A model generated the notes under the pieces. It did no database searches and was not told where the DNA came from. It saw only the letters and a list, made by a program, of their open reading frames with translations. This document shows positions 6,745-18,586 of a DNA stretch of 32,785 nucleotides, piece after piece. The stretch's first letter is position 1. Every line of letters starts with the position of its first letter. A program made the position numbers and the translations under genes. The stretch is taken from positions 1 through 32,785 of the forward strand of contig CAMATD010000031.1 of assembly GCA_945860785.1 (NCBI GenBank). Reading direction: 5' to 3'. Source of the stretch: Variovorax sp. YR752. GTDB lineage: Bacteria; Pseudomonadota; Gammaproteobacteria; Burkholderiales; Burkholderiaceae_C.

Positions 6745-8007
6745 TCAGGCGCGAGGGTCGCGCGGCTCTGCGCGCGGGCGTTCGTGCGCGCGCGGCAGCA
6801 GCAGGAACGCCAACGTGCCGGCGACCAGCATGCCCGCGACCGTGAGGAACACCGCGCGGAAGGGCTCGGCGCCATGCGCCACGGCCCACGACACGGCCCA
6901 CGACACGGCCCACGACACGGCCCACGACACGGCCACGCCGGTCGTCCATTGCATGAGCGAGACGCCGAGGAACATGGCCATGTTGAGCAAGGCCATCGCG
7001 CGCCCGGTCATCGCCGCCGGGTAGGCGTTCTTGGTGTACGCGTACTGCAGCACGCTGTAGCCGGAGAGAAGGCCGTAGACGATCGGCAGGCCGATGTCGA
7101 CCGCGCGCGAATGCGTCAGCGCCATGGCGCCGAACATCAGTGCACCGGCGAACGCGCAGCCGGCCATCCAGCGGCCGCGCCTTGCGCCGCCCGGGTCCAT
7201 GCGCCCGAACAGCGTCGGGCTGATCATGCCGGCGACCGTCATGACCAGCGCCACGTTGCCGCTGGCAATCAGCGAAAGGCCGTGGCGCTCGTGCAGCACC
7301 GGCCCGAGCCACAGGCCGCGCAGCGTGATGAAGGCCGCATACGACACGCAGGCGAAGCAGATCAGCCCCAGGGTGTGCGGCATGGCGAACAGCGGCAACA
7401 GTTCGCGCACGGCCTTGCGCAGCGACTGGCGCTCGGCGGGCACCTGTGGGTCCGGTTGATCCGCCGCACGCGCGGGTTCGCGCACGCGCCAGAAAATGAC
7501 CAGCCACGAGAGCACGGCGAACGCGGCCAAGCACGCATAGCCGGTCCGCCACGACGAGGCCTCGATCAGCAAGGCCAGCGGCGTGCCGGTGAACAGGATG
7601 CCCAGGCCCGCCAGGCTCATCACCAGCCCGGACATGGCGGTGAAGCGCGAGGCCTCGAAGTGCCGCGCGATGAACACGGTACAGGCCAGGAACGCCGGCG
7701 CGCAATCGACACCGATCAGCGCCTGCCCCAGGATCAAGGCGCTGAAGCTCGACGCCATCGCGCACAGCACGGCGCCCGCGACGGCCAGGGGAAAGGCGGT
7801 CAAGACCGTACGGCGCACACCGAGCATGTCGATCGACACGCCCATCGCGAGCTGCATGATGCCGAACGCGAAGTGAAAGGTGCCCGCCCACATCCCGAGT
7901 TCCTGGGGCGTCAGGCCGAAGTGCCGGGTCAGGGGCGTGGCCATCATGGCGCCGACCGTGCGGAAGGCTTGGCTCAGCGCGAAGGCAGTGGCCAGGGCGA
8001 CGAGCAT
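6745..8007 (-). CDS. MFS transporter with a tetrapeptide repeat in one membrane helix
   Basis: This 420-residue inner-membrane protein has about 12 hydrophobic helices and MFS loop motifs (GVSIDMLGVRRTVL between helices 2 and 3). The first helix contains ALSQAFRTVGAMMATPL. Residues about 359-376 are four copies of V-S-W-A, encoded by four perfect 12-bp repeats (6881-6928), which lengthen a helix near the C-terminus. The substrate is unknown; the neighbours give no hint. ATG 8005-8007 falls immediately before helix 1. The usual short N-terminal tail seems to lie in another frame: ATG 8075-8077 opens MKTNRRRPSADTPP, and removing one C from the C-rich stretch at about 8030-8045 would join it to RWSASATAM and the present start. 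An N-terminal frameshift is therefore possible. Confidence 0.85.
   Translation of the reverse strand: MLVALATAFALSQAFRTVGAMMATPLTRHFGLTPQELGMWAGTFHFAFGIMQLAMGVSIDMLGVRRTVLTAFPLAVAGAVLCAMASSFSALILGQALIGVDCAPAFLACTVFIARHFEASRFTAMSGLVMSLAGLGILFTGTPLALLIEASSWRTGYACLAAFAVLSWLVIFWRVREPARAADQPDPQVPAERQSLRKAVRELLPLFAMPHTLGLICFACVSYAAFITLRGLWLGPVLHERHGLSLIASGNVALVMTVAGMISPTLFGRMDPGGARRGRWMAGCAFAGALMFGAMALTHSRAVDIGLPIVYGLLSGYSVLQYAYTKNAYPAAMTGRAMALLNMAMFLGVSLMQWTTGVAVSWAVSWAVSWAVSWAVAHGAEPFRAVFLTVAGMLVAGTLAFLLLPRAHERPRAEPRDPRA
6881..6934. repeat. 12-bp tandem repeat, four full copies, in the MFS gene
   Basis: The unit ACGGCCCACGAC is present at 6881-6892, 6893-6904, 6905-6916 and 6917-6928, followed by a partial copy. 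On the coding (minus) strand it specifies repeated V-S-W-A within a transmembrane segment. The unit length preserves the frame whatever the copy number. Confidence 0.97.
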
Positions 8008-8347
8008 CGCGGTCGCGGACGCCGACCAGCGGGGAGGGCGGGGTGTCTGCCGACGGGCGCCGCCTGTTCGTTTTCATTGGAAAGGGAGGTCTTTTGGGGG
8101 AACGGCTCGAATGCTAATGGCATGCAACTCGCGCATGTCGGGCGGCGCCCGCCACTTAAAGTCCGCAGGATGAAGGGCTGGCGCGGGCCAGTCTTCCCCT
8201 CATCTTGAGGCGCCAAGGCGTACATCTCCAGTGCGCGATGTGCGTGGTATGGCGCACTTCGGGCATGCCATGCCCCGGTCTCTGCTGCCGGGGTTCCGCC
8301 ACTTCTGAACGCGCTGATAATCACGGACGCTTCAGAGAGAACCAAGC
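8008..8347. other. Left junction between chromosome and defence insertion
   Basis: The 340 bases between the MFS start and the SNF2 helicase start hold the possible MFS N-terminal extension (8008-8077), then no convincing gene. Two imperfect hairpins are visible: GTGCGC (8231-8236) with GCGCAC (8252-8257), and CCCCGG (8273-8278) with CCGGGG (8288-8293). GATAAT at 8316-8321 could be a -10 element for the defence genes, but I cannot see a good -35. No tRNA gene, integrase or obvious attachment repeat was found. Confidence 0.4.
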
Positions 8348-11217
8348 TTGGCCCCCGGTTTTACCCAATATCAGACGCAGTACTGCGCCTGGCTGCTTTC
8401 GCGGAAAATTGAAGGAGATTCTGCTGACAAGCTCGCGTCGACGCTGGTTGATGCGCAGGTAGATCTCAACCCTCATCAGGTTGAAGCCGCATTGTTCGCT
8501 TTCCAGAGCTCCCTGTCCAAAGGCGTCATCCTCGCCGACGAGGTCGGGCTCGGCAAGACCATAGAAGCTGGTCTTGTAGTCGCCCAGCGATGGGCCGAGC
8601 GCAAGCGGCGCATTCTGATCATTGTGCCGGCCAACTTGCGCAAACAGTGGCATCAAGAACTGGAGGATAAGTTCAGCCTGCAAAGCCTTATCCTTGAAGC
8701 CAAGAGCTTTAAGCAAATGCGCAAAGAAGGCTTGCACAATCCGTTCGAAGTCTCTGACAGGGTGGTAATTTGCTCGTATCAGTTTGCAAAAACCAAGGCT
8801 GACGAACTTAAGAGTGTTTCCTGGAACTTGGTCGTCATGGATGAAGCGTATCGATTGCGCAACGTCTACAAGCGCGGCAACGTCATTGGCAAGACGCTGA
8901 AGGATGCCTTAAGCAACGTGCCCAAGGTCTTGCTCACAGCCCTCCTTTGCAAAACTCCTTGATGGAGCTGTACGGTCTGGTCAGTCTGGTAGACGACAAG
9001 GTTTTTGGCGACCCCGATAGCTTTCGCGAACAATTCAGCGGGCTAGGCAACGCCGATACTTTTGCGCGTTTGCGCGCCCGTCTGCAATCTGTTTGCATGC
9101 GCACGCTGCGCCGCCAGGTTCAGCCGTATATCTCGTACACGCGACGAATTCCCATGGTGCAGGACTTCACGCCCATGCCGGAAGAAAAGGCACTACACGA
9201 AGACGTGGCGGACTACCTGCGGAGACCGGTGCTCAATGCGCTGCCTGCGGCCCAGCGTCAGCTCATCTCTTTGGTGCTGTGGAAGTTGCTTGCTTCGTCT
9301 AGCTTCGCCATCGCTGGCGCCTTGGGCACTATGGCGACTCGGCTCGAGGCCGAGCTGGCGAGCAAGCCATCAGATCAGTCGCTGGCCGAGACCTTGGACG
9401 AAGATTACGAAGCACTGGACGAAACCGAAGAAGAATGGCCGGAGCAAACTGGTAAACCCGAAGCCATTTCGGTTTCAGGTGTGGCGCAAGAGATCGCCGA
9501 GCTGCGTGACTTTCAGCAACGCGCCAGCACGCTGCGTGACAACGCAAAGGGCCATGCACTTCTGACTGCACTCGGGTTGGCATTCGGTAAACTCGACGGT
9601 CTCGGCGCGCCCAAAAAGGCGCTGATCTTCACTGAATCGCGTCGTACGCAGGACTATTTGCTTGGCCTGCTAGAGGCCAGCGAGTGGGCCGGCCAGACAG
9701 TGTTCTTCAATGGAGCCAACAATAGCGAACAGGCGACGGAGGTCTATCGGGATTGGCTCACCCGGCACTCGGGCACCGATCGCATCACCGGCTCACGCAC
9801 GGCCGACACACGCGCTGCGCTGGTCGACCACTTCAGGGATCGAGCCCGCATCATGATTGCAACTGAAGCGGGCGCCGAGGGCATCAACCTGCAGTTCTGC
9901 TCGCTCGTCATCAACTATGACCTGCCTTGGAACCCCCAGCGTATCGAGCAACGCATCGGCCGTTGCCATCGCTACGGCCAGAAGCACGACGTGGTGGTGG
10001 TCAACTTCATCGATCGCAGCAATGCGGCTGATCAACGCGTTTACGACCTGTTGGCTGAGAAGTTTCAACTGTTCGAAGGCGTCTTCGGCGCCAGTGACGA
10101 AGTGTTGGGAACCATCGGCAGCGGTGTCGACTTTGAGCGTCGCATCGCAGAAATCTACGAAACTTGCCGTGAGCCCAAAGAGATCGAGGCCTCCTTCCAA
10201 CAATTGCAGCTCGATCTGTCCGGCGAAATCAATCCCGCCATGCTCAAGACGCGGCAATTGTTGCTGGAGAACTTCGACGAAGCGGTGCAAGAAAAGCTCA
10301 GGCTGCGACAGAGCGAAAGCAAAAGTTCGCGCAATCGCTTCGAGCGACTGCTCTTGGATTTGACGCAAACAGAGTTGCAAGGGGATGCCAGTTTCGATGA
10401 CGACGGTGGCTTCGACCTGCACGGGTTGCCCGCAACAGTGAAGGCCGCAGACGCGGCGGTCGTGCCACTAGGCCGCTATGAATTGCCTCGCTGTACAGGC
10501 GATGCGCACCTGTACCGCGTTGGTCACCCGCTTTCGCAAGCGCTCATTGCCGCTGCTCGCGCCCGCCACTTGCCACGTGCTCGACTCCGCTTTGACTACG
10601 ACGCGTACGGCATCCATATTGCGACATTGCGGGATCTCCGCGGCCAGCATGGATGGCTGGCCGTTAGTGTGCTGTCCGTGGAATCGCTTGGCGTGACCGA
10701 AGAGCATTTGTTGGTTGCGGCCGTCGATAGTCAAGGCCATCCTTTGCACTACGAAGACCCGGACAAATTGCTGCGGCTGCCCGCCGAGTTGCTGACCAGC
10801 GAGTTGTTTGACGAGCCACCACCGTCCCTTGAAGGCCAGGTGCTTGCGCTGCAAAACGTTCGCCTCAATGAGATCAATCTGCGTAACTTGGGCCACTTTG
10901 ATGGTGAGGTGCAAAAACTCGATGCTTGGGCCGACGATCTGAAGATCGGCCTGGAGCACGAGGTCAAGGAACTAGATCGGGAGATCAAGGACGTGCGCCG
11001 CACCGCCAGTGTTTCGGGCACCCTGGATGAGAAGCTGCACTGGCAGAAGCAACAGCGTGCGCTGGAAGAAAAGCGCGGCCAGTTGAGGCGGAGAATCTTT
11101 GATCGACAGGATGAGATCGACGCGCAGCGCAGTCGTCTGATCGATGACCTCGAGTCGCGTTTGTCCAGCGTAGCGCGGCTGCAAGAGGTGTTTGTCATTG
11201 CGTGGGAGTTGGCTTGA
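8348..11217 (+). pseudogene. SNF2-family ATP-dependent helicase (HepA/DrmD-like), frameshifted
   Basis: Two frames together encode a 956-residue SNF2 translocase. The first (TTG start at 8348) has Walker A DEVGLGKT at residues 64-71, VPANLRKQW (motif Ia) and motif II at 165-168, here reading DEAY rather than the usual DEAH. The frame breaks at about 8938-8945 inside motif III: one base restored (GCC-ACT-CCT) gives LTATPLQNS. The second frame carries the helicase C-terminal domain, ALIFTESRRTQDYLLGLL, ATEAGAEGINLQF and QRIGRCHRYGQ (motif VI), then an alpha-helical tail with a strongly charged coiled coil near the end. SNF2 proteins use ATP to translocate on duplex DNA and occur in DISARM and other phage-defence loci. 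It heads the five-gene cassette and overlaps the next gene by one base (TGATG). Confidence 0.88.
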
Positions 11218-12951
11218 TGGCGACCACGTCTCCACGTCCGCTTGAGGTGCAGCAGATTCAGGCGTATCTCAAAGTCGAGTTCACCGATCTCATAGAAGGC
11301 CTTGGAAAATTAGACCAAGACAAAGAGCGGAATTTTCTTTCGAAGGCATTGGCGGCGTTCTTTCTGATGTCACAGGCGGGAGCCTCCAAGGCCGATGCAG
11401 TCGCGGCAAGCATCGATGGCGGTCAGGACCACGGAGTCGACTCCGTTTACATTGGCGCTACCGGCATTATCTGGCTGGTGCAGTCCATGTACATCCATGG
11501 TGGTGTGGGGGAGCCCATTCTGGGAGATGCTTCCAAGTTCCAGAACGGAGTGTTGGACTTCGCTGCAGGGAGGTTCGAAAGATTCAACGCCGCGTTGAAA
11601 CAGCGCAAAGCGGCAATCGACGCTGCAATGAACGGCGACTACAAGATCAAGTTCGCCTTGGTCTACACAGGCACTTCACTTGACGAAGATCGTCGAACGT
11701 TGTTTGCCGACGCGACGAAGAGCATCAACACGGTCCATCCGGATCGAGCTCAATTTGTGCGTTTCGGGCTGAGCGATTTTCACGATGTTTTGATGGCACG
11801 CCGCGCTGAGCAGGAACCGGAAGTCGAGATCGAACTTCAGAACTTTGGCTTGGTCGATGCGCCGGCCCGAGCCTTCTATGGCGTGATGAGAGTGCGCGAG
11901 TTGGCGGAGCTCTACCAACGGCACGATCACGCGCTGGTCCGCGCCAACATCCGTCGGTATCGAGGATCGTCCGAGGTCAATGCGGAGATCACTCGCACGT
12001 TGACTGAGGCACCGGGGGGCTTCCTCTATTTCAACAATGGAATCACGCTGCTCTGCCAACGAATCACACCGATCGGTTCAATGGATCCGCACAGAGCTCG
12101 AGGGCGATTCAGACTGACGGGTGTTTCGATCATCAATGGGGCCCAGACCGCGGGCACCGTGGCCCAGCAACCGTTAGCACACTACGACACACATCAAGCG
12201 TATGTTCTTGTGACTTGTATTCAGGAAAGCGGCGCAGCAGATTTCGGAGACAGGGTGACGGAATATCGGAACAGCCAGAACGCTGTCAAGGTGCAAGACT
12301 TCATTGCGCTTGACGATTAACCAGGAGGATTGGCGGCGAGCGCTGAAGACTGCGGGCATCACGTACATCTACAAGCAGAGTGCATCCGACCCACACGCCG
12401 CGGAGAAGGTATTCACTGCCCAAGAAGCGGCCAACTGCTTGGCTTGCTCACTGTCCGGCGCTGCAAGTATGCCGTTGCTCTGCCTGCTCCGCAGCGATCC
12501 TGGGCGACTGTGGGATCGAAGACGCAATTTGGCCGGAGACGCGGTGACGCAGGCCACTGACTCCTTGTACGGAAAGCTGTTTCCTGATGATCTGACCGCA
12601 CGACGCCTCTGGCGGACCACCCAGATCGGCCGGATGATCCGAACCACGATCAACGCTGATCTGGTGAGTCAGGCGCCCGAAGATGCTGCTTTCACCAGTG
12701 AAACTATCGAACTGATTTCGCATCTGGTATTCACGCAGAAGAGATCCCTGATCGACGCCGTCACGCTGACCTTGACCAGCGTGGAGCGACTGGAGATATC
12801 TCAAACCCTTGATAGCGTCCGAGACGAGCTTGCCAAGGCTTGGGAAAGCCCGCATTGGGCTGGGAAAATTCCTGCTGAAGTGTTTTCCGATCCTGGAAAT
12901 CTTCAAGCCCTCAAGACCGATGTAATGCGTGCCCTGAACGCTGGAAAATAG
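11217..12951 (+). pseudogene. AIPR-family (abortive infection phage resistance) protein, frameshifted
   Basis: ATG 11217 overlaps the helicase stop. The first 367 residues contain the family hallmarks: DGGQDHGVDSVYI early, then RYRGSSEVNAEITRTL, GGFLYFNNGITLLC (about residue 265-280), VSIINGAQTAG (about 300-312) and EYRNSQNAVKVQDF. This is the AIPR pattern, named after abortive-infection phage resistance proteins; the biochemical activity is not established. The frame stops at 12318-12320 because of one extra T in GATTAAC. Dropping it gives LDDNQEDWRRALKTAG and continues to 12951, 577 residues in all. An N-terminal nuclease-like region is plausible (DGGQDHGVDSVYIGATG followed by IIWLVQS) but unproven. 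The Mod gene follows after 5 bp. Confidence 0.85.
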
Positions 12952-12956
12952 TTCTC

Positions 12957-14614
12957 ATGACTCGACAAAAACTAGAGCTGACGTGGATCGGTAAAGACCA
13001 GCGGCCACGCTTGGAGCCTCGAATTCTGCTGGAAGACCCTAGGCGCAGCTACCACGCGTCGTCGCGCGTGAACGACTCGGACATCTTCGACAACCGTTTG
13101 ATCAAAGGTGACAACTTGCTGGCGCTCAAGGCGCTGGAGGCGGAGTTTGCGGGCAAGGTGAAATGTGTGTTTATCGATCCACCGTACAACACAGGCAGTG
13201 CATTTGCGCATTACGACGATGGACTGGAGCACTCCATCTGGCTGGGCCTAATGCGCGATCGACTGGAGATCATTCGGCGCTTGCTATCTGAAGAGGGGTC
13301 GCTATGGATCACGATTGACGACAACGAAGCGCATTACCTTAAGGTCTTATGTGATGAGGTGTTTGGGCGGTCAAACTTTGTCTCGAATGCGGTTTGGCAG
13401 AAGAAGTACACGATTTCCAATGATTCAAAGTGGCTGGCTGATACGCATGATCATGTGCTGATATATGCACGGGACAAAGAGATTTGGCGTCCCAACCGAT
13501 TGGGACGCACCGCCGAGATGGATAGCCGCTACCGGAATCCGGATGGTCACGCAAAGGGACCGTGGAAGGCGACGCCTCTGTACGCCAAGCGGACGGGTTC
13601 AGAACGAGAGCAATCTTTCTCTTTTAAGTTTAAGAACGGCGTTGTTTGGACCCCCCCAAGGGCACGTCACCTCGCTTTCCCGAAGGGGCACTCCGTCGAA
13701 TGGACGAGAACGACGAGATTTGGTTTGGGACCGATGGCTCGGCGAATCCGTCGAGAAAGACATTTCTGTCGGAATTGAAGTTGGCTGAACCGCCTGCGCC
13801 GACCATTTGGTTGCACACAGAGGTCGGTCAGAATCATGAAGCGCGAGAGGAAGTAAAGGCGATAAATCCGGATGATGCGTTCGCCACGCCAAAGCCCGAA
13901 AGGTTGCTGCTGCGAGTTTTGACTCTCGCCACCAACCCTGGCGACATCGTTCTTGACTCTTTCGCCGGATCTGGCACCACTGGCGCTGTCGCCCACAAGA
14001 TGGGGCGCCGCTGGATCATGGTGGAGTTGGGAGAGCACTGCCACACGCACATTGTTCCGCGCCTGCTGAAGGTCATTGACGGGCGAGACCCCGGCGGTGT
14101 GACGCAGGCCACTGGCTGGCAGGGTGGTGGCGGCTTTCGCTATTACGAATTGGCACCCACACTGCTGTCTACTGACCGCTGGGGCAACCTCGTCATCAAC
14201 CCCGAATACGACGCCGGCATGTTGGCAGCTGCTATGTGCAAGCTGGAGGGTTTTAGCTATGCGCCGTCAGACGTGTTGTGGTGGCGGCAAGGCCATTCCA
14301 GCGAGCGAGACTTCATCTATGTCACTACGCAAACCCTGTCTTCCGAGCAACTCGCCGCGTTGAGCGATGAGGTGGGGTCAGACCGTTCATTGCTGGTCTG
14401 CTGCGGCGCATGGCGCGGTGTCTCGGCAACACAGGCGGGCGAGCGCTGGCCCAATCTCACTATCAAGAAGATCCCCAAGATGGTGAAAGACCGCTGCGAA
14501 TGGGGGCATGACGACTACAGCCTGAATGTGGCGAATCTGCCGATGGCGCAAAAGTCGATGGACACATCAGCGCAATCCGATTTCTTTGCTGCCGTCGATG
14601 GCGAGGCAGGTTGA
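12957..14614 (+). pseudogene. mod: Type III restriction-modification methyltransferase (Mod), broken at a C7 tract
   Basis: The gene starts at ATG 12957. The catalytic motif IV is DPPY at residues 74-77 (FIDPPYNTGSAF), followed by SIWLGLMRDRLEIIRRLL and LWITIDDNEAHYLKVLCDEVFG, the usual type III Mod block. The variable target-recognition region follows. The frame is lost at the run of seven C at 13651-13657; with eight C the protein reads VVWTPPKGTSPRFPEGALRR and continues to the AdoMet motif LDSFAGSGTTGAVAHKMGRR and a stop at 14614, 552 residues. Motif IV before motif I marks a beta-class N6-adenine or N4-cytosine methylase; in type III systems it modifies one strand of an asymmetric site and supplies target recognition for Res. 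The nuclease gene DUF1016 overlaps its 3' end. Confidence 0.92.
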
Positions 14615-15759
14615 AGTGGCGACTCCGGCGCGCAAGTCGTCCATTGTCTGCAGCCGGGTACGCGACATTCTGGACGCTGCGCGCGCTGGGGTGGTGCGCA
14701 CGGTCAACACGACGCAGGTCGCGGCCAATTGGTTGATCGGGCGCGAGATTGTCGAGGAAGAGCAGCGTGAGCGGCGCCGGGCTGGTTACGGCGCCAAGTT
14801 GCTGGCTGAGTTGTCGGCGCGCCTGAACGCCGAGTTTGGGCACGGCTACTCCGTGGACAATCTTGAAGCCTTCCGGCACTTCTATCTGGACTATCCACAG
14901 CTGATTTCCGAGACGGCGACTCGGAAGTCGTCGATGGTGGTGCCGGCTTTTCTCGTCAACGCAAATCCCGAGACGCCGTCACGGAAATCGATTGGCGAAG
15001 AAGGCTGGCTGCTTGGTGCGCTGCATCCTTCGCTGTCATGGAGCCACTATCGCCAGCTTCTGCGCGTGGGACGTGCCGGGGCACAGGCCTTCTATGAGGT
15101 CGAGGCAATCCGCAATGAGTGGTCGGTGCGCGAGTTGTCGCGTCAGGCAGCCTGCCTGCTGTATGACCGCTTGGCCAAGAGCAAAGACAAAAAAGGGTTG
15201 ATGAGGCTGGCAACGCATGGGCAGGAAGTGACGCAGCTGATCGACGTGTTGAAAGACCCACTGGTGATCGAGTTTCTGGGGTTGCCCGAATCTCCGAGGC
15301 TGGTTGAATTGAAGTTGGTGCAGGCGCTCACTGGCAACTTCCCCAAATTTTTGCTGGAGCTTGGCAAAGGCTTCGCGTTCGTGTCGCGCCAGGAGCGCAT
15401 CACAGTCGATGGTGATCACTTCTACATCGACCTGGTTTTCTATCACGCGGTGCTTAAGTGCTATGTGTTGATCGACCTCAAGGTCGGCAAGCTGACCCAC
15501 GGCAATCTGGGGCAAATTCAGTTCTATGTGAACTACTATGACCGCGAACGACGTACTAAGGGCGACAACCCGACGCTGGGCGTGATCTTGTGTCCGGACA
15601 AGAACGATGCGGTAGTGAAGTACTCCCCTGGGAGAGCAGCAGGAACGCAATATCTTCACCAGTCGCTATCAACTGCATCTGCCGACGGAGCAGGAGCTGG
15701 GGCGCGAGCTTCGCCGCGAATTGAAGCACTTGTCCTTCATCGCCCCAGCTGAAGCGTAA
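14598..15759 (+). pseudogene. DUF1016 (YhcG-like) PDDEXK nuclease, frameshifted near the end
   Basis: The probable start is ATG 14598 (MARQVEV), inside the end of mod; GTG 14616 is an alternative with a weak AGG upstream. The N-terminal helical domain has the DUF1016 signature VNTTQVAANWLIGREIVEEE, then GYGAKLLAELSARL and LSWSHYRQLLRV. The C-terminal nuclease fold shows FYIDLVFYH (catalytic Asp, about residue 278) and LIDLKVGKLTHGNLGQIQFY (D-x-K at about 290-294), as in PDDEXK enzymes. An extra C in the run 15625-15628 shifts the frame; removing it gives KYSLGEQQERNIF and a natural C-terminus ending at TAA 15757-15759, 386 residues. The family is linked to restriction-modification loci. Position between mod and res suggests an accessory nuclease of the same system. 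Confidence 0.87.
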
Positions 15760-15788
15760 CCTAAGAAGAAGATGAAAGAAGACAAGTC

Positions 15789-18520
15789 ATGAGCCAGCGC
15801 GATGTCAACGACACCTCGGGGAGGATGAGCCTGCGCCCCCCCAGAAGGAATCGCTCGTCAAGCTTGCCGCTGCACTGGAGGCCGCGTCGGGCATGCTGCG
15901 GCATGAACGCGATGCGGCAGACGTGGCGGTCGTATTGGAAACGCTCAAAGAGCAATTGCCTGCACTGCAAGATTTCGAGCGTGAGTTTCCTTCGCTGTGT
16001 TTCGCCTTGGCCACAGGGGTCGGAAAGACACGGCTGATGGGCGCTTTCATCGCGTACCTGTACAAGGCTCACGGCATCAAGCACTTCTTTGTGCTGGCGC
16101 CCAACCTCACGATCTATGACAAGCTGATTGGCGATTTCACGCCCAACACGTCCAAATACGTGTTCAAGGGGGTGGCCGACTTTGCCGCCTATCCGCCCGA
16201 GATCATCACAGGCGACAACTACGAAGAGCGAGCACAGGCATTGGGTGATTTGCTCTCGCCCGTGACCATTAATATCTTCAATATTTCGAAGATCAATTCC
16301 GAAGTACGCGGTGGCAAATCGCCACGCATCAAGCGGCTTTCGGAGTACATCGGCCAGAGCTACTTTGACTATCTCGCGAGCTTGCCGGATCTTGTGCTGT
16401 TGATGGACGAATCGCATCGTTACCGTGCCAGTGCAGGTGTGCGTGCCATCAATGACTTGAAGCCTTTGATCGGACTGGAACTGACGGCCACGCCCTTCGT
16501 CGAGACGACCAAAGGGCCCGTGGCGTTCAAGAATGTCGTGATGAACTATCCGCTTGCACAGGCAATGGAAGACGGCTTCGTAAAAGAACCTGCGGTGGTG
16601 ACGCAGCGCCACTTCGACGCCAGCAAGATGCCACCCGAAGAGGTGGAGCGCGTCAAGCTGCAGGACGGCGTGCGCATGCATGAAGCCACTAAGGTCGAGC
16701 TGCAGACATATGCGCGGACCAACGGCGTAAAAGAGGTCAAGCCCTTCATGCTGGTGATTGCCCGCGACACCACGCATGCCAGCCAATTGCTGGCGCACTT
16801 GCAGTCCGACGCTTTCTTCAGCGGGCGCTATGGAGGCAAGGTCATCCAGGTCGACAGCAGCAAGTCCGGTGCCGAAGAAGAAGACATGGTGCGCCGCCTT
16901 CTCGCCGTCGAAAGTGTGGATGAGCCGACCGAGATCGTGATTCACGTCAACATGCTCAAAGAAGGCTGGGATGTGACCAACCTCTACACCGTTGTTCCGC
17001 TGCGGGCGGCCAACGCACGCACGCTGGTGGAGCAATCGATCGGGCGGGGGCTGCGTTTGCCTTATGGCAAGCGCACAGGCGTTGCCGAGGTGGATCGGCT
17101 CAGCATCATCGCGCACGATCGCTTCCAAGAAATCATCGATGACGCGAATCGTGCGGACTCGCCGATCCGACTCAAGCAGTTGATTCTGGATGCGCCGGAT
17201 GCAGCAGGTGGAGGTATGCCGCGCAGCGTGGTCGTGCAGCCTAACTGGGAGAGCGCTATCGGCAGCTTGGCGCTGCCGGGTGCTGGGGCCGTTCAGTCCT
17301 ACATGACCGGTGCGACAGTGGCGCCACTTTTCACAACAGAGCCCGAACGGCAGGCGGCGATCTTTGCGATGGAGGCGGTGGCCAGCTACGAGTTGCGCCC
17401 GCAAGATGCGCCCACTCGCCAAGCGTTGCTCAGCCCCGAGTTGCAGGCGCGTATTGCTGAAACGGTGAGAGCCAAATTACCGCCGCAGCAAGCCACGCTG
17501 CTGGAAGGCGCTGACGCGCCACCCGAGGTTGATCTGGCGGATGTGGTGCGTCGTGCTGTCGAAAATCTCGTTCAACAAACCATCGACATCCCACGCATCG
17601 TTGTGGCGCCCAAGGGCGAAGTGACGAGCGGCTTCAGGCCCTTCACCCTGGACGTTTCTGGGCTCCATCTGCAGCCCAAAGATCGTTCGCTCGTAGGGCA
17701 AACGCTGCGCACACATGAGCAGTTCACGTTGTCTGCGCAGGGCGGTCGTGCCGAGCGACGCTTGGAGGATTACATCGTCCATGCGCTGATCGACTTTGAC
17801 GACTTTGACTACACGACGCACGCGGGCTTGCTGTACGACCTTGCCGGCCAGTTGGTAGCGCATCTGCGAAGCTATTTGTCTGATGAAACCAAAGTGCGCA
17901 ATGTGCTCGACCTCGACCGGCAACTGATTGCCCGGAATATTCATGCGCAGATGGCGGAGCATTTCTTCGAGTCTGCGACGCAATATGAAGTGGAGGTGCG
18001 GCGAGGATTCACTGCGCTCAAGGCGCCAACATACACGGCTGTAGCAGGACAGGCGACTCGGGACTACCGGGACACAGTCGAAGAACCCAGTCGTATCAAG
18101 CAAATGCTGTTCGGAGGCTTTTCTCGATGTCTTTATCCGGTGCAGAAGTTTGACTCCGACACCGAGCGGCGATTTGCAGTGATTCTTGAACGCGATGCAA
18201 GCAAGTGGTTCAAGCCCGCGAAGGGGCAGCTTCAGCTCTTCTACAAGCTCGGCTCCGAGCATCCAGAATACGTGCCCGACTTTGTGGTTGAGACGGCGAA
18301 CCATTTGCTGTTGTGTGAAACCAAGGCGCGGAACGAGATGGAGGCCGAGGATGTGAGGGCCAAAGCCCAGGCCGGCGCTCTCTGGTGCCTACATGCGTCA
18401 GAGCATGCAGCCAACATTGGCGGAAAGCCGTGGCTGTATCTGCTCGTTCCACATGAGCAAGTGACGGAGGACAAGCGGCTATTGGATTGCTTCCAATTTG
18501 CCATGACGCCACACCGATAG
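15789..18520 (+). pseudogene. res: Type III restriction enzyme Res: helicase plus PDDEXK nuclease, frameshifted near the start
   Basis: ATG 15789 opens MSQRDVNDT; one missing G in the run at about 15823-15826 shifts the frame, and restoring it reads TSGEDEPAPPQKESLVKL and then the long intact frame to 18520, 910 residues. Superfamily 2 helicase motifs are Walker A ATGVGKT (about residue 74-80), LLMDESHRYRA (motif II, DESH), ELTATPF (motif III) and QSIGRGLRLPYG (motif VI). A C-terminal nuclease region reads YVPDFVVETANHLLLCETKA, consistent with PD...ExK. Type III Res translocates after Mod recognition and cleaves DNA at head-to-head sites. The gene is 29 bp after the DUF1016 stop and ends the cassette just before a probable terminator. 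ATG 15771 leads only to a six-codon frame. Confidence 0.92.
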
Positions 18521-18524
18521 TAAA

Positions 18525-18554
18525 AACGGCGCTCTCCGGCGTCGTTCTTTCCTT
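18525..18554 (+). terminator. Probable terminator of the defence operon
   Basis: AACGGCGC (18525-18532) pairs with GCGTCGTT (18539-18546) with one G-T pair across a 6-base loop, followed by a T/C-rich tail. It starts 4 bp after the res stop codon. The tail is not a pure T run, so efficiency is uncertain. Confidence 0.5.
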
Positions 18555-18586
18555 CAAGCCCGACACAAGGTGCGGGCCGACGTCGA

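Follow-up and report, generated by a model that had tools for sequence, protein, structure and literature searches.

This analysis concerns a five-gene island on contig CAMATD010000031.1 of Variovorax sp. YR752 (assembly GCA_945860785.1) and the family of restriction loci to which it is related. The window, that is, the whole stretch of 32,785 nucleotides under study, is an entire contig of a 445-contig assembly with 87% completeness. Pfam and PADLOC place an SNF2 helicase, an AIPR protein, a type III Mod methyltransferase, a DUF1016 nuclease, and a type III Res at positions 8348 to 18520, all in the same direction. The block is a 57% GC island, with values of 0.56 to 0.59 compared with 0.68 in both flanks, and malate synthase G is its right-hand neighbor. 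A first-pass annotation had described five co-directional genes with overlaps or gaps of 0 to 29 bp; the families, the direction, and a packing within about 30 bp stand once frame changes are allowed (with the ends of DUF1016 and the start of Res placed by eye), whereas every gene turned out to be frame-interrupted.

The first gene (8348 to 11217, forward strand, as are all five; frames 8348 to 8962 and 8947 to 11217) encodes an SNF2/RapA-like helicase with Pfam matches to SNF2-rel_dom (1.5e-20) and Helicase_C (7.4e-21). Its best PADLOC model is DrmD (PDLC02619), and HmaA scores much weaker. The AIPR-family gene (11217 to 12951; frames 11217 to 12320 and 12304 to 12951) matches PF10592 at 2.1e-30, with 106.9 bits against a gathering score of 25, and PADLOC AbiU at 1.7e-25. 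The Mod gene (12957 to 14614; frames 12957 to 13778 and 13646 to 14614) matches N6_N4_Mtase in Pfam and MTase_III in PADLOC (8.1e-99 and 7.1e-114) and retains intact DPPY and FAGSGTT motifs. The DUF1016 gene (14598 to 15759), a YhcG-type PD-(D/E)xK nuclease, has an open frame to 15752 and a C-terminal frame change; it is matched by YhcG_C (1.6e-46, 158.4 bits) and DUF1016_N (1.8e-33, 116 bits) in Pfam and by PDC-S02 in PADLOC (1.4e-115, 384 bits). The Res gene (15789 to 18520) combines an SF2 helicase with a C-terminal PD-ExK nuclease; its open frame spans 15893 to 18520, a frame change lies in its N-terminal part, and the first ATG of the upstream frame is at 15789. Res matches ResIII in Pfam and REase_III in PADLOC (8.7e-207), its Walker A, DESH, motif VI, and PDF...ETK motifs are intact, and the EcoP15I Res structure (4zcf) is matched weakly (E value of 2.9e-6). 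The earlier assignment of Mod and Res to type III restriction-modification is borne out by the family models and tested motifs of both proteins, and the families of the second motor, the abortive-infection-type gene, and the nuclease said to join them are confirmed as well.

The full AIPR model reached a mean pLDDT of 68 and returned no Foldseek match at an E value of 0.001 or below. Its N-terminal domain was modeled at a pLDDT of 81 and gave weak matches only (best E value of 0.22 and TM score of about 0.2), many of them to HincII, a PD-(D/E)xK enzyme. A search by sequence found no convincing solved relatives of AIPR or DUF1016 (best E values of 0.45, 0.56, and 0.041). Because the fold matches are weak, the reading of AIPR as a putative nuclease rests on a conserved D...QxK-like pattern in the N-terminal domain, which is compatible with such an enzyme. 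This reading departs from the HEPN assignment given in the available text of PMC3506569.

With one frame change in each of its five genes, the window copy could be a decaying remnant without function, a reading that we regard as possible, if rather doubtful. It draws further on two departures from consensus: motif II of SNF2 reads DEAY in the window and DEAH in 44 of the 44 relatives with letters there, and the AIPR pattern reads QSM, with M replacing the K present in 11 of 11 aligned relatives. DUF1016 departs at 6 of 66 otherwise invariant positions, the most in its set and in part within the shifted tail, and a Res remnant stands alone at the same chromosomal site in one congener. The frame breaks themselves were not accepted as proof of decay, since private frameshifts occur in the flanks too. 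Eight regions from the same genus served as the comparison, and a frameshift indel was counted when it was isolated, private, and backed by no fewer than 2 relatives and 60% of the covering ones. The window contains 8 private frameshifts in the 22.5 kb covered (0.36 per kb), 7 in the flanks (one of them a 20-base gap) and 1 in DUF1016, compared with only 0 to 0.12 per kb in the eight congener regions. Breaks in the 10.2-kb island (5) and in about 20.3 kb of flank (6; length estimated and the 20-base gap excluded) occur at rates that do not differ significantly (P = 0.52). A cruder count of gaps was uninformative, as gaps among these relatives fall in compensating clusters. The flanks are frame-broken too, and the record is therefore indel-prone and its breaks say little about function. 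Two of the five breaks coincide with C7 runs, at 13651 in Mod and 15836 in Res; phase variation of Mod through the first run was considered, and homopolymer error accounts for both equally well. Decay is also opposed by the near absence of departures at positions invariant in all other alignment rows (SNF2, 0 of 107; Mod, 0 of 35; Res, 1 of 106), where the SNF2 and Mod counts cover the longer fragment only, so that the DEAY site lies outside them.

The chromosomal site beside malate synthase G was compared in eight same-genus regions (L159 to L166). It is empty in L159 and L161, and it holds a lone DUF1016 gene in L160 (7260 to 8618) and L166 (3600 to 4680, with a broken frame), with a leader that looks similar by eye. 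L162 (6560 to 8500) retains an internally deleted remnant of Res there. L163 ends at the site, and L164 and L165 have a different left flank and do not match any of the five cassette proteins. The cassette was found in none of the seven informative congener regions. The window DUF1016 pairs as sister with the lone copy that a congener carries at this site (74% identity over kept columns; support value, 97). The left boundary zone of the island spans 8130 to 8347, with homology to congeners ending at about 8031 to 8122. On the right, the first-pass annotation had read a probable terminator as bounding the cassette. A hairpin terminator is indeed present at 18521 to 18555, at the 3′ end of malate synthase G, but a like hairpin was seen by eye at the two empty sites, and it therefore belongs to the site and not to the cassette. 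A small excisionase-like helix-turn-helix (HTH) gene precedes SNF2 in L008, L013, L024, L052, and L168, and an annotated HTH gene lies upstream of SNF2 in plasmids L169, L170, and L171 too. Five conserved HTH proteins searched against window positions 7801 to 8700 gave nothing better than an E value of 0.05, on the minus strand, and no such gene was found upstream of SNF2 in the window.

Relatives of the locus were collected with SNF2 as the query in one genome per species, keeping the best 80 of at least 591 matches, and on plasmids, where 5 of 46 records were examined. Additional searches with Res and SNF2 covered 349 genomes from the order and 378 from the phylum; scoring extended to the top two or three candidates in each genome, which makes absences soft; Mod between the two genes was checked in fetched loci only. 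In the order sample, Res was found in 18 of 349 genomes, and SNF2 lay on the same contig within about 11 kb in 13 of these 18, the window's genome included. The exceptions comprise one genome that keeps an N-terminal SNF2 piece (G011), two in which the contig ends in Mod (G091 and G190), and one with a decayed Mod and no SNF2 (G220), the fifth being taken up below. In the phylum sample, Res was found in 20 of 378 genomes and was linked to SNF2 in 10 (3 shared with the order sample, the window's genome included), and many of the unlinked copies lie near contig ends. When only assemblies of 20 contigs or fewer were retained, a cutoff chosen after the lists were seen, SNF2 was near Res in 12 of 12 Res-bearing genomes (6 from the order and 8 from the phylum, with 2 shared), which do not include the window's own genome. 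By a simple estimate, a Res-SNF2 pair would fall within 15 kb by chance in about 0.75% of cases in a 4-Mb genome.

The pairwise distances of the three proteins are correlated across 46 loci (Mantel r = 0.73 for SNF2-Res, 0.74 for Mod-Res, and 0.58 for SNF2-Mod; all P = 2e-4). At the level of sequence, SNF2, Mod, and Res are thus the conserved unit, and their proteins evolve in step. From this pattern it appears that an SNF2 motor is a common third partner for one subfamily of type III restriction pairs. The first-pass annotation had envisaged a possible separation into an SNF2-AIPR pair and a Mod-DUF1016-Res trio, which is not the natural division: the unit is SNF2 (core gene 1), Mod (core gene 2), and Res (core gene 3), with one cargo slot between SNF2 and Mod (slot 1, AIPR in the window) and another between Mod and Res (slot 2, DUF1016 in the window).

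The slots were surveyed in 104 loci, 80 from the SNF2 search, 19 from the order sample, and 5 plasmid stretches. Complete SNF2, Mod, and Res in order passed the thresholds in 45, which together with the window make 46 core-complete loci. The other 59 were dropped for a core gene that was cut, too distant, missing, or replaced, often by a methylase of about 1,000 to 1,200 residues. Cargo was assigned by Pfam, PADLOC (for ten proteins), and BLAST clustering, with one label chosen per slot where several genes co-occur; accordingly, L008, L132, and L137 are labeled AIPR and additionally hold an SMC-like or AAA_23 protein, and L168, labeled Abi_2, carries a transposase too. Slot 1 is filled in 37 of the 46 loci and carries 16 labels. 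AIPR is the most frequent (11), followed by HEC-01-type proteins (5), Schlafen (3), and PLD, OLD, GmrSD, SMC-like, and DSR2 proteins (2 each), and AAA_15, IrrE, AAA_23, Argonaute, DUF3800, HerA, Abi_2, and one unassigned protein occur once. In four loci this position contains no more than a gap or a gene of roughly 0.5 kb, and in five it is empty. Slot 2 holds DUF1016 in 9 of 46 loci (one with RhuM in addition), RhuM alone in 6, a Zeta-toxin-like protein in 1, and Schlafen in 1; a short gap is present in 1 and no cargo in 28. Unrelated defense genes thus occupy fixed positions within a conserved operon, as expected of a chassis with embedded cargo, and cargo proteins match the PADLOC models of stand-alone defenses HEC-01, DSR2, HEC-06/GmrSD, IetS, Old/GajA, and pAgo. 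Slot 1 of L027 (5875 to 10506) is shared by an Argonaute, a SIR2-like and a PIN protein, and a protein without a family assignment. In L044, L050, L051, L061, L170, and L171, the Mod and Res of the SNF2-Mod-Res arrangement belong to a distant second subfamily, and in L171 a DUF262 protein sits between Mod and Res.

Exchange of cargo is visible between individual loci. The Res nearest to that of the window (L005, 79% identity) is accompanied in slot 1 by a HEC-01-type ATPase, not by AIPR, and L080 and L133 share DSR2-type slot-1 proteins that are 92% identical while slot 2 holds RhuM in the former and DUF1016 in the latter. Two intact relatives that are sisters by Res, L010 (Nitrosomonas mobilis) and L013 (Noviherbaspirillum humi), carry AIPR and a PLD protein, respectively. 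Distances of the cargo proteins follow those of the core much less closely than core distances follow each other. On the 11 AIPR rows, Mantel r was 0.42 with SNF2, 0.48 with Res, and 0.35 with Mod, compared with 0.87 (SNF2-Res), 0.68 (SNF2-Mod), and 0.73 (Mod-Res) within the core; on 10 DUF1016 rows, two of them slot-1 copies, it was 0.22 with SNF2, 0.16 with Res, and 0.10 with Mod, compared with 0.91 (SNF2-Res), 0.46 (SNF2-Mod), and 0.50 (Mod-Res) within the core. Label changes were also counted on a Res tree, built by a quick method, and compared with 300 shuffles. AIPR presence required 10 changes (9.9 when shuffled), slot-2 DUF1016 required 8 (8.4), slot-2 labels required 16 (17.2; matched or undercut in 63 of 300 shuffles), and, where slot 1 is filled, its labels required 24 (25.1; matched or undercut in 62 of 300).

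These results bear on the proposal of the first-pass annotation that the five genes form one system. An integrated system with AIPR and DUF1016 as obligate subunits would explain the tight co-directional packing in the window and the same five-gene order in a second locus (L011), and we nevertheless hold it to be highly improbable. AIPR occupies slot 1 in 11 of the 46 loci and DUF1016 occupies slot 2 in 9; the two coincide in only 2 loci, compared with 2.15 expected under independence, so that the order recurs just once among 45 relatives. The SNF2 and Res of L011 are 62% and 64% identical to those of the window, whereas its AIPR and DUF1016 are only about 30 to 33% identical (AIPR, 32% over the best segment; DUF1016, 30% and in the other of the deep clades), and the window AIPR shares 45 to 47% identity with those of L023 and L132. 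As the cargo of L011 is distant while its SNF2 and Res are close, the order probably arose twice, with separate assembly in the two loci. In addition, AIPR turned up at 43 sites spread over 39 of the 349 order genomes; 4 of these sites are in SNF2-Mod-Res loci of the order searches, and the other 39 lie outside them. The five genes as a single unit were rejected on the basis of slot turnover and independence, AIPR and DUF1016 being exchangeable. The initial puzzle of five genes gives way to a general rule: three conserved restriction genes form the core, and the contents of two slots turn over almost at random.

Taken together, the sequence comparisons demonstrate core conservation, linkage, co-evolution, and cargo exchange, and we consider it probable that this locus represents one arrangement of a modular operon against phages in which an SNF2-Mod-Res core carries two slots for rapidly exchanged second-line effectors. 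In type III systems, Mod methylates host sites, and the Mod-Res complex translocates along unmethylated DNA and cuts it. The core of the modular operon would accordingly provide methylation-based self/non-self restriction of unmethylated DNA, and the RapA/DrmD-like SNF2 motor may aid it, e.g., by clearing proteins from DNA or by loading Res. By analogy with PrrC and EcoPrrI, the slot cargo, namely AIPR and DUF1016 in the window, might act as second-line effectors once restriction is blocked or overwhelmed, with restriction first and the cargo as a backup. A bolder version, which we deem unlikely, is that SNF2-Mod-Res serves as a guarded bait or general trigger whose inhibition or overload releases whichever effector fills its slots. 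If true, AIPR, HEC-01, DSR2, GmrSD, Schlafen, OLD, Argonaute, and others would be warheads that can be exchanged on a common sensor, and the slots would offer a ready supply of new defense genes. The slot rule itself predicts where unknown defense genes may be sited, e.g., the proteins without assignment in slot 1 of L047, L037, and L040.

The serious rival to the modular operon is passive hitchhiking, in which the locus would be an insertion hotspot whose cargo and core act independently, without regulatory coupling. We treat it as a real though tentative possibility. Several cargoes fit families with stand-alone defense models, the window DUF1016 clusters with the solo gene that a congener carries at this chromosomal position, and the cargo is nearly random across the core tree, all of which speaks for hitchhiking. 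It accounts less readily for cargo that is mostly on the same strand, closely packed, and confined to two fixed positions, or for an empty slot 1 restricted to some lineages, and the coupling of a toxin to restriction is established for PrrC-EcoPrrI in the available text of PMC12707154 and PMC3710099. Decay of the window copy would fit both views of the family, and our confidences in these explanations are not exclusive of one another.

Several observations weigh against the modular reading. The DEAY and QSM departures described above affect the window's own SNF2 and AIPR. In the order sample, SNF2 was not found on the Res contig of G193 among the best candidates scored. In the phylum sample, 8 of the 20 Res-bearing genomes yielded no SNF2 match that reached the threshold, and in 2 SNF2 lies on a contig other than that of Res; in G569, Res begins 18 kb into its contig, yet no SNF2 is among the matches listed. 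Relatives were found with SNF2 as bait, which biases the census toward SNF2-bearing loci, a bias that the Res-first searches partly correct. A weak correlation between cargo and core distances persists (P = 0.01 to 0.02 for AIPR and 0.03 for DUF1016-SNF2). Finally, the filled or empty state of slot 1 tracks the Res tree (5 changes versus 8.4 when shuffled; 0 of 300 as low), and the full set of slot-1 states, including empty, shows signal as well (29 versus 33.3; 0 of 300). Since filled labels alone do not track the tree, lineages differ in their use of the slot, with contents that are near random.

Parts of this arrangement are known. Defense genes embedded in Hma and type I restriction loci have been published (PMC12255303, PMC12111858, and PMC10855318, in their available text), as have backup effectors inside BREX and BR loci (PMC12839542, likewise), and DUF1016 and RhuM are existing PADLOC candidate families (PDC-S02 and PDC-S05). 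No NCBIfam model scored above its cutoff for eight window fragments or ten intact proteins, the latter comprising eight core or cargo proteins of such loci and two from an SNF2-large methylase locus (L055). In the PADLOC and NCBIfam protein scans, no single named system took in all five genes, and the SNF2-Mod-Res core was not found by name in the open-licence PMC papers searched. In many of the loci L053 to L084 (e.g., L055, L069, L077, and L084), SNF2 is followed by a methylase of about 1,000 to 1,200 residues and in several directly afterward by DUF1016; the methylase of L055 received no NCBIfam name.

The nearest system named at first was class 1 DISARM. The locus resembles DISARM class 1 and ARMADA in combining, within an operon, a methylase with an SNF2 helicase of RapA/DrmD type, and DrmD models score best for SNF2. 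A DISARM variant is nonetheless scarcely credible. None of five intact SNF2 relatives (655 to 681 bits) reaches the DrmD_b cutoff of 950 bits (window fragments, 180 and 463), and among the PADLOC matches listed for the eight window fragments there is no DrmB or DrmC, and DrmA appears merely as a helicase cross-match. The full Pfam lists for the window's five genes hold no further domain. The YprA-type helicase and PglX-like methylase of those systems, as presented in the available text of PMC12458937, were not recognized in the five genes, and the nuclease here is a type III Res. On the score shortfall of the SNF2 relatives, DISARM was rejected, in keeping with the doubt already attached to it in the first-pass annotation.

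Hma and the DUF499-centered BR systems with Hma-embedded candidates (HEC) share with this family a chassis of SNF2 helicase and methylase carrying embedded defense genes, and the Hma-embedded cargo HEC-01 and HEC-06 recurs in the slots of SNF2-Mod-Res loci. They differ in having a DUF499-type ATPase with an m5C or N6 methylase, according to the available text of PMC8565338 and PMC12839542, in place of type III Mod and Res; for the window's five genes, DUF499 is absent from the Pfam lists and HmaB and HmaC from the PADLOC matches listed. PrrC-EcoPrrI and the type I loci with embedded RhuM or DarTG2 likewise place a toxin or defense gene, as a proposed second line, inside a restriction operon, although their core is type I hsd (PMC12707154, PMC3710099, and PMC12255303, as far as their available text goes) and here it is type III with SNF2. 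PMC3506569 and PMC2292703 had already noted AIPR next to restriction genes, among them those of type III; AbiU/AIPR linked to restriction shares this adjacency, and here AIPR is one of 16 slot-1 labels. The older hypothesis of a coupling between immunity and suicide, outlined in PMC3506569, becomes directly testable through cargo swaps on a fixed core. Compared with type III restriction-modification (MTase_III, PDLC03636; REase_III, PDLC03648), with which it shares the Mod and Res families, their order, and the tested catalytic motifs, the locus family adds an SNF2 motor as the usual third member and two cargo slots. The SNF2-type III core as a chassis, its two slots, and the measured decoupling of cargo from core appear to be new.

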